In this document: positions 51,927-64,000 of the stretch, one piece after another
Position numbering within the stretch: the stretch's first letter is position 1
Layout: every line of letters begins with the position of its first letter
Origin: Acidiphilium acidophilum
GTDB lineage: Bacteria > Pseudomonadota > Alphaproteobacteria > Acetobacterales > Acetobacteraceae
Length of the DNA stretch: 64,000 bases
Direction: 5' to 3'
NCBI RefSeq assembly: GCF_033842475.1
Contig: NZ_JAWXYB010000018.1
Coordinates: forward strand, 975,501-1,039,500
Position numbers and translations under genes: made by a program
Notes under the pieces: model-generated
Told to the model about the DNA's origin: nothing
Database searches by the model: none
What the model saw: only the letters and a program-made list of their open reading frames with translations

Positions 51927-52136
51927 CCCCCCTCTGTCGCGGAACCTGAGAGATTCGGATCGGGGTTGGCCCGGTCCTTACGCCGTCGGTGCGGCGCGAT
52001 TGCGCCGGCTTTCCAGAGATTCGTTTTTCCGCGCGGTCCTGTGTGCCTGAGCGTTTCCGGGGGCCGGTTGCGCCTTCGGCGGCGATGCTGAGGCCCGGGG
52101 TTGGTTCCGGTTGCGTCGCTCTCTCCCGCGCGGGAG
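51927..52136 (-). ncRNA. tandem glycine riboswitch upstream of gcvTHP
   Basis: Read on the minus strand the two aptamers are clear. Aptamer 1 (about 52136-52030): CGGGAGAGAGC, CCGAAGGCGCAA, GGAAACGCTCAGGCA and ACAGGACCGCG. Aptamer 2 (about 52025-51930): AATCTCTGGAAAG, CGACGGCGTAAG, GAATCTCTCAGGTTCC and GACAGAGGGGGG. This is the standard two-aptamer arrangement that turns on gcv operons when glycine binds. The gcvT ATG is about 55 bases further on. No strong intrinsic terminator is seen, so control of translation start is the likelier output (inference). Confidence 0.93.
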
Positions 52137-52203
52137 TTCGAATACGCCCTTGATGAGCGAGGTTGGAGTTAAAAGCAAGCGGCGCGTAACGGAGGCAGCC
52201 GCA

Positions 52204-55266: not shown

Positions 55267-55289
55267 ATGCGGTTTTGCGGGCTGGTTTG

Positions 55290-55600
55290 GGTTTGCCGGG
55301 AGGTTTCGGGGTTCGGTGGAAGTGGGGGGCTTCTGTTGCCCGGTGCCCCCCGAACCGCGCTTATCGCTTATGCAGCGACAGCGAATGCCTCGAAATTATC
55401 GTTGGCACTTGTGATATAGCCCGATAACGGCGGTACAATGCCGAGCGAAAGATGGGTCTTTACCGTGCGTGTCGAGCCTGTTTCGCCCCCATGATCCGCC
55501 AATGAAGGCGGAATTTGGTGGAGGCGCCGGGTACTGCCCCCGGGTCCACAACACTTATTCCACGCACCGTTTATCGCCATAGCCGGTTGCCCAGCTTGCG
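55290..55600 (-). ncRNA. ssrA: circularly permuted two-piece tmRNA
   Basis: Minus-strand order is acceptor piece, short spacer, coding piece, as in alphaproteobacterial permuted tmRNA. The acceptor piece ends at 55516 with CGCCTCC plus encoded ACCA and has a T-arm CCGGG-GGCAGTA-CCCGG. A 25-base spacer with hairpin CCGCC/GGCGG follows. The coding piece starts at 55490 with GGGGGCG, which pairs with CGCCTCC giving the G3-U3 alanine identity pair. CACGCAC (55471-55465) pairs with GTGCGTG (55567-55561) as the P2 helix joining the two pieces. The tag frame follows. Outer ends are estimates. Confidence 0.93.
55368..55406 (-). other. tmRNA proteolysis-tag reading frame
   Basis: From the resume codon GCC (55406-55404) the frame reads ANDNFEAFAVAA then TAA (55370-55368). 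It fits the alphaproteobacterial tag type (compare Caulobacter AANDNFAEEFAVAA) and ends in the ClpXP-recognised AVAA. The tag is one residue shorter between F and F than the Caulobacter form. Confidence 0.93.
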
Positions 55601-55636
55601 TCATATAGGCGATATAAGCGCCTTGCGAAAGGGAGC

Positions 55637-60411: not shown

Positions 60412-60783
60412 ATGGGTTTGTTCGATCAGATTTCCGGCATGGTGGGCTCGGCGCTCGGCGGGTCCGACGATGCGGCGGGCGGTGGCATACAGGCTCAGGT
60501 GATGAGCGTGCTGAAGCAGAACGGGATCGATGGGATGTCCGGCCTGGTGCAGCAATTCGAGCAATCCGGCATGGGGGCGCATGTCGCCTCATGGGTCGGG
60601 GACGGACAGAATTTGCCGATTTCGGCCGCGCAGGTGCAGGCAGCGCTGGGCAGTCCGGTGATTGCCTCGATCGCGCAACGGTTCGGCGTCGATCCGGCGA
60701 TGGCGGCCAATCTGCTCGCGCAGCACCTGCCCGATGCGGTGGATCAGGCGACGCCGGATGGCACTATGCCCGACGGTTCGTGA
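60412..60783 (+). CDS. YidB/DUF937-family protein
   Basis: A 123-residue protein. MGLFDQISGMVGSALGGS is the characteristic start of YidB-like proteins; SGLVQQFEQSGMGAHVASWVG and the DUF937 core ALGSPVIASIAQRFGVDP follow. Function is unknown. It has a start codon shortly after GAGGGG-type purine-rich sequence. Confidence 0.88.
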   Translation: MGLFDQISGMVGSALGGSDDAAGGGIQAQVMSVLKQNGIDGMSGLVQQFEQSGMGAHVASWVGDGQNLPISAAQVQAALGSPVIASIAQRFGVDPAMAANLLAQHLPDAVDQATPDGTMPDGS

Positions 60784-60789
60784 CCGGGG

Positions 60790-61344
60790 ATGAGCGATTT
60801 CACCATCGTCGGGTTGTGCGGCAGTCTGCGGCGGGGTTCGTTCAACATGGCCGCGTTGCGCGCGGCGGCCGATCTGGTGCCTGAGGGGGCGGTGATCGAG
60901 ATCGCCGGGATCGGCGATATCCCGTTATATGACGATGATGTGCGCGCGACGGGAATGCCTGAACCGGTGCTGACGCTGGCCGCGCGTGTGGCGGCGGCGG
61001 ATGCGGTTCTGATCGCGACGCCGGAATATAACTACTCGATTCCCGGGGTGCTCAAGAACACGATCGATTGGCTGTCCCGCTGCGATCCGCAGCCATTCAA
61101 GGGCAAGCCGGTGGCGATCATGGGGGCGAGCCCCGGCATGATCGGGACGGCGCGGGCGCAATACGATCTGCGCAAGGTGTTCGTGTTTCTCGATGCGCAT
61201 GTGCTGAACAAGCCGGAGATCATGATTGGCGGGGCCGCGCAGAAATTCGATGGCGGTGGCGTATTGGTCGATCCGGTGACACGCCAGTTCATCGGTCAGC
61301 AGATCATCGCATTGCGCGACTGGGCGCGGCGGTTGCAGGGCTGA
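60790..61344 (+). CDS. NADPH-dependent FMN reductase (quinone/azoreductase-like)
   Basis: A 184-residue flavodoxin-fold protein. VGLCGSLRRGSFNMAALRAA is the FMN phosphate-binding start, IATPEYNYSIPGVLKNTIDW is the hallmark of the FMN_red family, and GASPGMIGTARAQYDLRKV follows. It reduces quinones, chromate or flavins with NADPH. It starts 6 bases after the YidB-like gene. Its last 41 bases overlap the end of the convergent ArfA-like frame. Confidence 0.93.
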   Translation: MSDFTIVGLCGSLRRGSFNMAALRAAADLVPEGAVIEIAGIGDIPLYDDDVRATGMPEPVLTLAARVAAADAVLIATPEYNYSIPGVLKNTIDWLSRCDPQPFKGKPVAIMGASPGMIGTARAQYDLRKVFVFLDAHVLNKPEIMIGGAAQKFDGGGVLVDPVTRQFIGQQIIALRDWARRLQG

Positions 61345-61522
61345 AACGGCAATCGCCCGAACCGTGGGGCGGTTCGGGCGATCTTGTCGGGGCTTTGTGT
61401 TTGGCGCGGCGGTTCCACCGATCGGCTTTCAGCGCACGTTCCACGCGGGTTTTCGTGTGTTTCGGGCGGTAGAGCGGATTGGTCAGAAGATCGCGCGCCA
61501 TGGGATTTCGCTTGCGCGCCAT
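61304..61522 (-). CDS. small basic protein resembling ArfA-type ribosome rescue factors
   Basis: A 72-residue frame. Residues 1-46 (ARKRNPMARDLLTNPLYRP, then KTRVERALKADRWNRRAKHK) follow the ArfA pattern: N-terminal A-x-x-L-L-x-x-P-L-[FY]-R and a basic tail ending in RRAKHK, although the KGKGSY block is replaced. The part after residue 46 is formed by a 13-bp hairpin (61352-61382) plus bases antisense to the FMN reductase, so it is unlikely to be conserved protein. In E. coli such a hairpin in arfA makes the mRNA stopless and tmRNA-controlled. Assignment to ArfA is tentative. Confidence 0.55.
   Translation of the reverse strand: MARKRNPMARDLLTNPLYRPKHTKTRVERALKADRWNRRAKHKAPTRSPEPPHGSGDCRFSPATAAPSRAMR
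61352..61382. terminator. 13-bp perfect hairpin between FMN reductase and ArfA-like gene
   Basis: Arms ATCGCCCGAACCG (61352-61364) and CGGTTCGGGCGAT (61370-61382) with a 5-base loop. Only short T-runs follow on either strand. It lies 8 bases after the reductase stop on the plus strand and inside codons 47-57 of the minus-strand ORF. It may act as a weak terminator or as an RNase III substrate. Confidence 0.75.
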
Positions 61523-61583
61523 GGCATTTACTCCAGAATGGGGCGCGGATCGCGCCCGGAACGTTACGCTGGTAGCGCCGGGA

Positions 61584-61793
61584 TTATCGCAGCGTCAAGA
61601 CGATGTTGCGCGCGGCGCGACGGCGGAGCCACCACCGGGCGCCCTCCAGGCATAAGGCGAGGCCGATGAGCACGATCAGAATGTTCTGGCCGAGGGGGCT
61701 GAGTGACAGGCCGACAGGCGTGCCGCGCATCGCGATGCCGGGGACTGCGGCGATCATGGCCAGGACCAGCGAGGCGGTCACGACTGGATGCAT
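61584..61793 (-). CDS. small two-helix membrane protein, 69 residues
   Basis: Two hydrophobic segments, VVTASLVLAMIAAVPGIAM and LGQNILIVLIGLALCLEGA, followed by a basic tail WWLRRRAARN. It is preceded on its strand by CCTGAGGAGCC-type purine-rich sequence suitable for ribosome binding. No family recognised. Confidence 0.55.
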   Translation of the reverse strand: MHPVVTASLVLAMIAAVPGIAMRGTPVGLSLSPLGQNILIVLIGLALCLEGARWWLRRRAARNIVLTLR

Positions 61794-61969
61794 CGGTAGG
61801 CTCCTCAGGTTGAGCGATCAGGTCGCGACGGACCTAGCCAGAAATTTAATGCAAGGTTCATGCCGATATGAGAAAACAACGGGTTACGTCTCCCCAATTG
61901 GGACGAGTGTAAGATTTCCTGACAAACTCTATGGGATCGTCGGAGTTCAGGACAAGCGGTTGGTGGCGT

Positions 61970-63118
61970 TCAGGTTCGGTCGCGCAGCAGGAATTCGCGG
62001 CCGATCTTGACGCGGGACTGGCCGTCATAGGCGACGATATCGGCGGTGGCGTAGGTTTCGCCCCAGGTTTCGGGGATGAAGCTGCCGGTACCGACCACGT
62101 CGATCGGGGTGTGGGCATCGGCGAGGACGCTGCATTTCTCGACTCCGAAGCCGGAGGAGGCCACGATCCTGACGCGGACGAACCCGGCTTCATCGAGGGT
62201 TTCGCGCATCCGCCAGATCGCGGCCGCGGAGACGCCGGTTCCGATCAGGTAGCGCAATTCGTTGTGGCTGCGGTAGCGGCGGATCGCGCCCGGTGCGTGA
62301 CGTTCCATCACCGCATAGCTTTCCTGCGGATCGAGCCCTTCGAGGAATCGGCCGCCATGGGTGTCGAGCCGGACCGAGAGGCGGCCGGATGCGGCAAGTT
62401 CGGGGTAGCGGCGGCACACGGCGAGGGCATCGGTGACTTCGAGGCCGAAATAATCGGTCAGCACCGTGAGGTCGGAGTCGGGAAAGGTTTCGCGGAACAT
62501 CTCGGCGGCGCGCAAGGTACTGCCGGCATAGCCGATCAGGGCGTGGGGCATGGTGCCGAACCCGTGCGGCGCGCCGAAATAATGCGCGGTGGCATCGTTG
62601 GCGTTGCCGATGAAGCCGCGCGCGCCTTCGGCCTGCGCCGCGCGCGAGCCGACGGCGGCGGCGTAGGCCATCATCTCGGCCATCTCGGCCCCGGCGCAGT
62701 GCCGGGCTTCCATCGCGAGAAAGGCGGATTTCGGCAGGGCCGCGCACATCTGATAGGCGTTGTGCGCGGCAACGCAGGCCGGACCGAGTTTCTGCAGCAG
62801 GATGGTCTCAAGGTCGACCAGGAGCAGGAAACTGCCGGTGATATAGGCGATCGGTTCACCAGCGCCGACCCAGGTGCCTTCGGGGTGCTGAAGCTCGATA
62901 TCGATGGTCTCGCCGCGCGCGGCGGCGACCTCGTTCAGCCAGGCCAGCATGAGGGCGGGGGCGGAGACGACCGGGCGGCGGAGAAAATAGGCGTAGGTCA
63001 CCCGGCTGTCGCCGAATTTGGCGACGATCGCCTTGGTCCGGTTGAAATACGCATCGGTCCGCGCCGCGATCCCGGCATCGAGATCGGCGCGGGAGACGCG
63101 GCGCGGGGCGCGGCCCAT
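61970..63118 (-). CDS. pncB: nicotinate phosphoribosyltransferase
   Basis: A 382-residue enzyme of NAD salvage that joins nicotinate and PRPP. AARTDAYFNRTKAIVAKFGD, MEARHCAGAEMAEMMAY, GTMPHALIGYAGSTLRAAEM and VRIVASSGFGVEKC match the family, with TPIDVVGTGSFIPE near the end. ATG 63118 shares one base with the stop of the upstream DAHP synthase gene; earlier in-frame starts would overlap it. Confidence 0.92.
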   Translation of the reverse strand: MGRAPRRVSRADLDAGIAARTDAYFNRTKAIVAKFGDSRVTYAYFLRRPVVSAPALMLAWLNEVAAARGETIDIELQHPEGTWVGAGEPIAYITGSFLLLVDLETILLQKLGPACVAAHNAYQMCAALPKSAFLAMEARHCAGAEMAEMMAYAAAVGSRAAQAEGARGFIGNANDATAHYFGAPHGFGTMPHALIGYAGSTLRAAEMFRETFPDSDLTVLTDYFGLEVTDALAVCRRYPELAASGRLSVRLDTHGGRFLEGLDPQESYAVMERHAPGAIRRYRSHNELRYLIGTGVSAAAIWRMRETLDEAGFVRVRIVASSGFGVEKCSVLADAHTPIDVVGTGSFIPETWGETYATADIVAYDGQSRVKIGREFLLRDRT

Positions 63119-64000
63119 TATTCCGCCGCGATCTCGGTGGTCCGGGGGGCGCGGCGGGATTTCAGCTCGGCGGCGATCAGGAAGGCGAGTTCGAGCGATT
63201 GTTCCGCGTTGAGGCGGGGGTCGCAGAAGGTTTCGTAACGGGCTGAAAGGTCGGCCTCCGAGAGTTGGCGGGCCCCGCCGATGCATTCGGTGACGTCCTG
63301 CCCGGTCATTTCGACATGCACACCGCCGGGAATGGTGCCCTCCGCCTCGTGAATGTCGAAGAAGCCGCGGACTTCGGACAGGATCGCATCGAAGCGACGG
63401 GTCTTGATCCGGCCTGCGGTGGTGATGGTGTTGCCGTGCATCGGGTCGCACAGCCAGGCATTGTGGCGGCCTTCGCGCCGGGCTGCGCGCAGGAGTTTGG
63501 GCAGCTTGGCCGCGACGTGATCGGCCCCCATCCGGGCGATGAGCGTGAGGCGGCCGGGTTCGGCATCGGGGTCGAGCCGCTCGATAAGGCGGAGCAGGTC
63601 GTCCTCCTCCATGGTCGGGCCGACCTTCAGGCCGATCGGGTTTTTCACCCCGCGCATGAATTCGACATGCGCGCCTTCGAGCTGGCGGGTACGATCGCCG
63701 ATCCAGAGGAAATGGGCGGAGCAGGCATAGTGATCGCCGGTGGTGGAATCGACGCGGGTGAGCGCCTGTTCATAGGGCAGCAGGAGGGATTCGTGGCTGG
63801 TGTAGAATTCGGTCTCGTGGATCTGCGGCGTGGATTGGCTGGTCATGCCGCAGGCGGCCATGAATTGCAGGGTCTCGTCGATGCGCGAGGACAGGTCGCG
63901 GTAGCGCTCGGCCAGGGGCGAGCGGCGGACGAAATCGAGATTCCAGCGATGGACCTGATGGAGGTCGGCATAGCCGCCGGAGGCGAAGGCGCGCAGCAGA
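63118..64000 (-). CDS. class II 3-deoxy-7-phosphoheptulonate (DAHP) synthase, C-terminal part (5' cut by window)
   Basis: About 293 residues are visible up to the window end. [53 protein letters not shown]-like ([15 protein letters not shown]), [34 protein letters not shown] and [13 protein letters not shown] are plant-type (class II) DAHP synthase signatures. It makes DAHP from PEP and erythrose-4-P, first step of the shikimate pathway that aroC completes. It overlaps pncB by one base. Confidence 0.95.

Follow-up and report, generated by a model that had tools for sequence, protein, structure and literature searches.

A small gene with a hairpin inside its reading frame

We analyzed a 64,000-nucleotide stretch of the Acidiphilium acidophilum genome, hereafter called the window. 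On its minus strand, positions 61304-61522 hold an ORF of 72 codons with an ATG start, and a Shine-Dalgarno sequence (GGAG, 61531-61534, minus strand) lies 8 nt 5' of the ATG. A G/A-rich Shine-Dalgarno sequence precedes the ATG in eight of the nine intact homologues compared, the exception being locus L008. Codons 1-43 (MARKRNPMARDLLTNPLYRPKHTKTRVERALKADRWNRRAKHK, 61394-61522, minus strand) form a conserved coding core, recognized by its homologues, by purifying selection, and by profile similarity to ArfA. The core contains a putative RF2-binding patch, LLTNPLYR, at codons 12-19 (61466-61489, minus strand), assigned by hhalign, residue mapping, and the ArfA contacts described in PMC5378476. 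Its C-terminal half is basic (10 Lys/Arg in 24 residues) and ends in Lys-His-Lys at codons 41-43 (61394-61402, minus strand), which includes the Lys-His motif common to ArfA and BrfA. Codons 1-43 are under purifying selection, with uncorrected pN/pS of 0.1-0.4 in 13 pairs; between the window copy and that of G153, pN was 0.06 and pS was 0.55. When the window protein was searched against Pfam, the sole row was YpzG (E 0.14), and the NCBIfam search returned no row.

The frame then runs into a hairpin. Codons 47-57 (61352-61382, minus strand) comprise the arms ATCGCCCGAACCG and CGGTTCGGGCGAT with the 5-nt loop CCCCA, giving 13 perfect pairs plus one G-U pair, and no in-frame stop lies between the conserved codons and this hairpin, which is a predicted message end or cut site. 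Folding of the whole ORF gave a z score of -4.1, and folding of the 60 nt 3' of the Lys-His-Lys codons gave -5.0; in both cases none of 200 shuffles was equally stable. Since 17 comparable hairpins (13 or more pairs, 8 or more of them G-C, a loop of 3-9, and no more than one mismatch) occur in the 64 kb, a single copy is weak evidence. The hairpin rises above chance because its position and frame are kept across genera, as described below. From the hairpin to the TGA (61304-61351, minus strand) the frame is unconserved between genera. This part comprises 48 nt including the stop, of which 7 are intergenic bases and the remainder is antisense to the end of an FMN reductase gene; we predict that it is, as a rule, untranslated. 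An earlier note on the window, made from the sequence alone, had placed a perfect 13-bp hairpin at codons 47-57 and had called the rest of the frame antisense of the reductase. Both statements held, the second one after the 7 intergenic bases.

The convergent NADPH-dependent FMN reductase gene (60790-61344, plus strand; PF03358, E 6e-44) overlaps the end of the frame. The upstream neighbor is a small membrane-type ORF of 69 amino acids (61584-61793, minus strand), which marks the far border of a site found empty in genomes G096 and G263. Next to it is a conserved neighbor, a phosphoribosyltransferase gene with a QRPTase_N domain (61970-63451, minus strand), given here as the longest ORF with its true start uncertain. 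A phosphoribosyltransferase gene is also found near the new gene in G153 and G232, two genomes of the window genus. Elsewhere in the window, a glycine riboswitch aptamer (Rfam RF00504) was identified at 52024-52138 on the minus strand.

Relatives of the gene

Homologues were found in Acidiphilium, in a second Acetobacteraceae genus (g63), in one further MAG (G094), and in unplaced bins. The gene was detected in 11 of 397 Acetobacteraceae genomes after two weak matches had been dropped. It is present in 6 of the 13 genomes of the window genus (a seventh, weak match was rejected) and in four of the six g63 genomes, one of which has two truncated copies and one a frameshifted copy. Two further loci, L024 and L025, lie in metagenome bins without an established family. 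No other clear family member was found among 337 genomes of the class. When the window protein alone was searched against genome contigs, no relative was confirmed; viral contigs searched with the family profile (A2, nine sequences) gave no match, and no family member was found in plasmids and phages. Among the class-wide matches, L057 and L058-L061 were judged to be chance by inspection of their frames, and L056 and the window itself were kept; L016, L017, L019, L020, and L028 were rejected on inspection of their loci. Entries with the same frames were counted once (L021 with L009, L022 with L010, L023 with L007, L026 with L008, and L027 with L011).

Some copies look damaged, namely the copy of G137, which has a one-base frameshift, the two truncated copies of G223, and the copy of G357. 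G382, a genome conspecific with the window genome, has neither the gene nor the reductase; because the reductase is absent too, the locus is probably missing from the assembly. In g63, flanking DNA is common to L006, L007, and L011, and L006 and L011 lie opposite different tRNA-Lys genes. It is possible that the gene moves or duplicates near tRNA genes in this genus.

The in-frame hairpin recurs across loci

We examined the DNA 3' of the conserved Lys-His-Lys codons, which was readable at 13 distinct loci; L025 was left out of the hairpin counts because its contig stops short of this region. At 10 of these loci (L005, L006, L007, L009, L010, L011, L012, L015, L018, and L024), a hairpin lies in frame just 3' of the conserved part and before any stop. 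These hairpins have 11 to 21 pairs (scanner count, at most one mismatch) and begin at most 13 nt after Lys-His-Lys, with the next in-frame stop 63 to 678 nt after it and folding z scores of -3.3 to -5.3. The N-terminus is intact at seven of the 10 loci, L011 being frameshifted upstream and L015 and L018 being truncated. By reading, a T-rich tail follows on the same strand at nine of the 10, the window copy being the exception. The tails are TTTTTTTT in G232, TTTTTTT in G370, CTTTTT in G153, TTTCTTT in L006, L007, L015, L018, and L024, and TCTCTTT in L011. In L012 (G370, 300-385), the frame stop and the ATG of the following gene, which is on the same strand, overlap (TGATG) just 3' of the in-frame terminator.

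Downstream DNA is common to only 5 of 45 locus pairs, each within one genus: L006, L007, and L011 mutually, L007 with L018, and L005 with L009. The last two have a neighbor gene in common, and L006, L007, L011, and L018 all belong to g63. Between genera, protein similarity stops at the hairpin. Stem pairing was 95.7% over 140 cells, of which 7 carried a two-sided change, a count reached by none of 500 shuffles. The two-sided changes fall in only 2 of the 14 stem pairs (Acidiphilium versus g63), which was matched by 186 of 500 shuffles, and the number of further pair types in the stem was not above that in shuffles. As a control, we folded 8 of 27 arfA loci, taking E. coli and seven of enterobacterial or Pseudomonas type by protein appearance, and a strong in-frame stem before the stop was present in all eight.

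The three remaining readable loci have no hairpin. At L008 (G094), the frame ends in a normal stop 30 nt past Lys-His-Lys, and the z score is +1.0. L013 and L014, from low-completeness MAGs of the window genus, have neither a hairpin nor a stop near Lys-His-Lys (z +1.3 and -1.8).

In the window copy, no good T-run follows the stem (TTGCCGTTT), and no terminator was detected when 60700-62000 was scanned. One explanation is that this copy is decaying, having kept the hairpin and lost the T-run, so that it would be read to its stop codon and be ungated. The empty terminator scan and the damaged copies in other genomes speak for decay. Against it, codons 1-43 are under purifying selection relative to G153, the 13-bp stem is perfect, and the arfA stem-loop can serve as an RNase III target as well (PMC8012679). 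We consider decay unlikely. If the window copy does make a stopless message, its poor T-run means that cutting by RNase III or weak termination has to be assumed.

The hairpin is missing together with the gene, not with the reductase

In the window and in G153, the hairpin lies immediately 3' of the reductase stop. It could therefore be a property of the convergent FMN reductase gene that falls within the frame of the small gene by accident, and the earlier note had taken it to serve also as the 3' end of the reductase gene. The order of genes in related genomes contradicts this explanation. In G096 and G263, a YidB-type gene, the reductase, the small membrane ORF, and the phosphoribosyltransferase gene are present in unchanged order and the new gene is absent; in both, the gap between the reductase stop and the membrane ORF measures just a few tens of bases, and the hairpin is absent together with the gene. 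In G370, the gene that follows the new gene and its hairpin lies on the same strand. In G062 and G137, the gene lies opposite a convergent tRNA-Lys gene instead of the reductase, and in G232 it still adjoins the phosphoribosyltransferase gene. The hairpin is thus not needed as the 3' end of the reductase gene, since G096 and G263 keep the reductase without it and the hairpin occurs elsewhere without the reductase. Ownership by the reductase is all but excluded, and that part of the earlier note is corrected.

Similarity to ArfA at the RF2-binding residues

We compared the family (nine sequences) with ArfA (A3, 13 sequences picked from the 27 loci) by hhalign, which gave a probability of 76.8% and a score of 26.5. 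The alignment covers 24 N-terminal columns only. The highest score among 300 column shuffles was 16.9 (16.6 in the first set). ArfA had been chosen by eye beforehand, so that a correction for the number of families is due, and the match survives it only just: the extrapolated tail, 1.5e-6, multiplied by 24,736 Pfam families is about 0.04. Residues L19, L24, and F25 of ArfA bind RF2 at W319, V198, and F217 (PMC5378476), and these three ArfA residues align with L12, L17, and Y/F18 of the new family. L12 and L17 are invariant and position 18 is Y or F in all nine family sequences. In the RF2 of the window genome, Val and Phe lie around SPF as far apart as V198 and F217 of E. coli RF2; in the RF1 of this genome, Thr takes the place of the Phe. 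Rescue factors of this kind are poorly matched to the RF2 of a foreign species (PMC6881298). K41-H42 is invariant in the nine sequences; the Lys-His motif of ArfA and BrfA contacts U534 of 16S rRNA (PMC6881298).

Other features separate the family from ArfA. The Pfam ArfA model (PF03889) matched neither the window protein nor the nine family members at E values up to 10, and it found no match in the window genome itself, with the E. coli control positive. The KGKGS motif, present in all 13 ArfA sequences, is absent from all nine family sequences, and the spacer from the aromatic residue to Lys-His is four residues longer than in ArfA. In profile searches of PDB chains, profile A1 gave no match, and both A1 and the ArfA profile A3 failed to return BrfA. 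ArfA is unstructured off the ribosome.

Because the protein is ArfA-like in the anatomical signs tested and yet fails the PF03889 match and lacks KGKGS, we call it ArfA-type and not plain ArfA. The earlier note had described residues 1-46 as resembling ArfA. This held in part, as the sensitive comparison found N-terminal profile similarity above all shuffles but in 24 columns only, and membership of ArfA proper was corrected. Among the results that the same note had named as refuting its reading are homologues conserved well past residue 57 and no similarity to ArfA in a sensitive search; neither was found, the similarity between genera ending at the hairpin.

An origin independent of ArfA, such as has been argued for BrfA, is possible but unlikely. 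The NPLYR patch, Lys-His, and the in-frame terminator would then be convergent. In favor of it are the missing Pfam ArfA match, the missing KGKGS, and the C-terminal half, which shows no direct alignment to ArfA; moreover, BrfA and ArfA have been described as convergent, with Lys-His and stopless messages in common (PMC6881298, PMC8012679). PMC11633108 instead treats ArfA and BrfA as homologous. Against an independent origin stand seven small alphaproteobacterial proteins (A4; L056, L070-L074, and L076, with L075 left out) that bridge the two families, hhalign linking them to the new family with a probability of 95.6% and to ArfA with one of 94.8%. One of them, L071, a 35-residue ORF with a normal stop (MKKRNPIAEDLRSPKYKKRIVKPKKGKGSFKRKKK) from the 1.2-Mb alphaproteobacterial genome G779, contains KGKGSF and matches Pfam ArfA with 32.8 bits against a cut-off of 25.5.

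Complementary distribution with ArfB

We next searched 80 Acetobacteraceae genomes (13 of the window genus, six of g63, G094, and G001-G060) with the ArfB model NF006718. ArfB was found in none of the 11 genomes with the new gene and in 49 of the 69 without it (Fisher 8e-6). When only intact-looking copies were counted, the figures were 0 of 8 versus 49 of 72 (p 2.7e-4), and within Acidiphilium they were 0 of 6 versus 3 of 7 (p 0.19). These p-values overstate the case because the genomes are related and not independent. ArfB is also absent from 20 of the 69 genomes without the new gene, including four of the window genus and two of g63, so the new gene alone does not explain the absence of ArfB. 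Most genomes of the window genus have two release-factor copies by PF00472, and incomplete G382 has one. A third, ArfB-type copy occurs within the genus only in G096, G263, and G328, all of which lack the new gene. G196, G288, and G309 of the same genus yielded no match for the new gene or for ArfB.

The family could also be ordinary: small basic proteins that bind nucleic acid or associate with ribosomes, with a hairpin that is a mere terminator overlapping an ill-defined C-terminus. Small basic proteins are numerous, and the hairpin is missing at 3 of the 13 homologous loci. However, in a normal gene the stop precedes the terminator, which is not so at 10 loci; between genera, conservation does not extend past the start of the hairpin; and neither the ArfB pattern nor the match at the RF2 patch is predicted by this explanation. 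We regard it as very unlikely.

A permuted alphaproteobacterial tmRNA gene (ssrA) is located at 55277-55634 on the minus strand, as the union of the predictions of two tools (55277-55610 and 55321-55634), about 5.7 kb from the new gene, whose gatekeeper its product is predicted to be. ARAGORN detected no tmRNA in the DNA around the gene in G153 (19.5 kb), G232 (10.1 kb), G062 (19.9 kb), or G370 (8 kb). We therefore dropped the closeness of the two genes as a functional linkage, as it looks incidental.

A probable ArfA-type factor with proposed gating by trans-translation

The sequences show a protein family under purifying selection, with a recurrent in-frame hairpin and similarity to ArfA at the RF2-binding patch. 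They also show a distribution complementary to that of ArfB, with gene and hairpin both missing from the site in two ArfB-bearing relatives. The likely reading is that the new gene encodes an unrecognized ArfA-type, RF2-dependent rescue factor that is gated by trans-translation and replaces ArfB. The message ends, tagging, RF2 dependence, and rescue activity are inferred. In this model, transcription would end, or RNase III would cut, at the hairpin inside the frame, leaving a stopless message with a product of about 57-60 residues. While trans-translation works, the product would be tagged by tmRNA and destroyed. When trans-translation fails, the protein would be released and place its basic C-terminal half into the empty mRNA channel, and the L12/L17/Y18 patch would recruit and open RF2, so that the ribosome is freed. 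The gating is proposed by analogy with arfA and brfA, and the factor would stay off until the main rescue system fails. It would then stand in for ArfB, which is absent from the genomes with the gene.

The earlier note had proposed this stopless, tmRNA-gated logic beside a permuted ssrA and had considered it new for an alphaproteobacterium. The logic is supported, with an architecture as in the eight arfA control loci, although mRNA ends and activity are inferred. The permuted ssrA is real, and "beside" is corrected to a distance of about 5.7 kb that appears incidental. The claim of novelty is supported by the literature survey and by our searches. In a 2024 survey of 15,259 genomes with DNA profiles (nhmmer), arfA was found in 0 and arfB in 2,022 of 2,376 Alphaproteobacteria (PMC11633108), and a review noted that further small rescue factors could exist, perhaps undetectable by sequence similarity (PMC8012679). 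Our searches of open-licence PMC papers turned up no description of the new family, nor of ribosome rescue in Acidiphilium. The known backup to trans-translation in Alphaproteobacteria is ArfB. The present candidate was found by its anatomy, and its natural comparison is the site with or without the gene against the absence or presence of ArfB. With it, the backup of trans-translation in Acidiphilium becomes open to direct test, as does the number of times that gating by stopless messages has evolved.

Comparison with known rescue factors

Like ArfA (YhdL, PF03889; beta- and gammaproteobacteria), the predicted product is a small basic protein with a leucine/aromatic patch of the RF2-binding type and a basic tail with Lys-His, and its gene has a hairpin in frame before the stop. 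It differs from ArfA in lacking KGKGS, in the longer spacer before Lys-His, and in being missed by the Pfam model, and its known occurrence is so far limited to Acetobacteraceae and unplaced bins of Proteobacteria. BrfA (YqkK, Bacillus) has an in-frame rho-independent terminator, Lys-His, and an aromatic residue, Phe31, at RF2 (PMC6881298), which are points of likeness; a point of difference lies in two helices at the N-terminus of BrfA, which contact 23S rRNA. ArfB (YaeJ, NF006718) is likewise a backup rescue factor in Alphaproteobacteria, with a distribution complementary to that of the new gene, but ArfB has its own GGQ and is independent of a release factor, whereas the new protein has no GGQ. 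ArfT of Francisella is also a short basic factor that recruits release factors; it is not ArfA-like in regulation and lacks a hydrophobic residue where ArfA has F25 (PMC6299226).

DUF7230 and the alphaproteobacterial ArfA-like proteins (L056 and L070-L076) share with the new family a (K/R)NPxAxxL-type start and a basic tail. They differ from it in having ordinary stop codons in all eight frames. L056 has a stem in frame, rich in GC and about 11 pairs long, but without a T-run, and the six other bridging loci that were folded (L070-L074 and L076) had no comparable stem wholly before the stop. L076 passes the DUF7230 (PF23876) cut-off and the other bridging proteins match below it; the same profile gave no match for the window family. 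It is possible that DUF7230 is an unrecognized family of rescue factors; searched by name, it returned nothing in the open-access literature covered.

In a bolder reading, ArfA, DUF7230, and the new family form a single ancient superfamily whose members recruit RF2 to rescue ribosomes. It would extend across Alphaproteobacteria, small-genome lineages among them, where the 2024 survey found no arfA, and stopless gating would be a detachable module in it. The module would be present in Acidiphilium and g63, other members would have a normal stop in its place, and hairpin and gene would be lost together where ArfB is present. Taken as a whole, this joint claim is one that we lean slightly against. 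If it were true, terminators inside conserved small frames would be a general route to rescue factors missed by sequence searches.

Two observations on these proteins are recorded here. L056, L070, and L072-L076 are small basic proteins with a scattered occurrence in Alphaproteobacteria, and several weakly match DUF7230, ArfA, or both. L071 passes the Pfam ArfA cut-off although the 2024 survey gives no arfA in Alphaproteobacteria.
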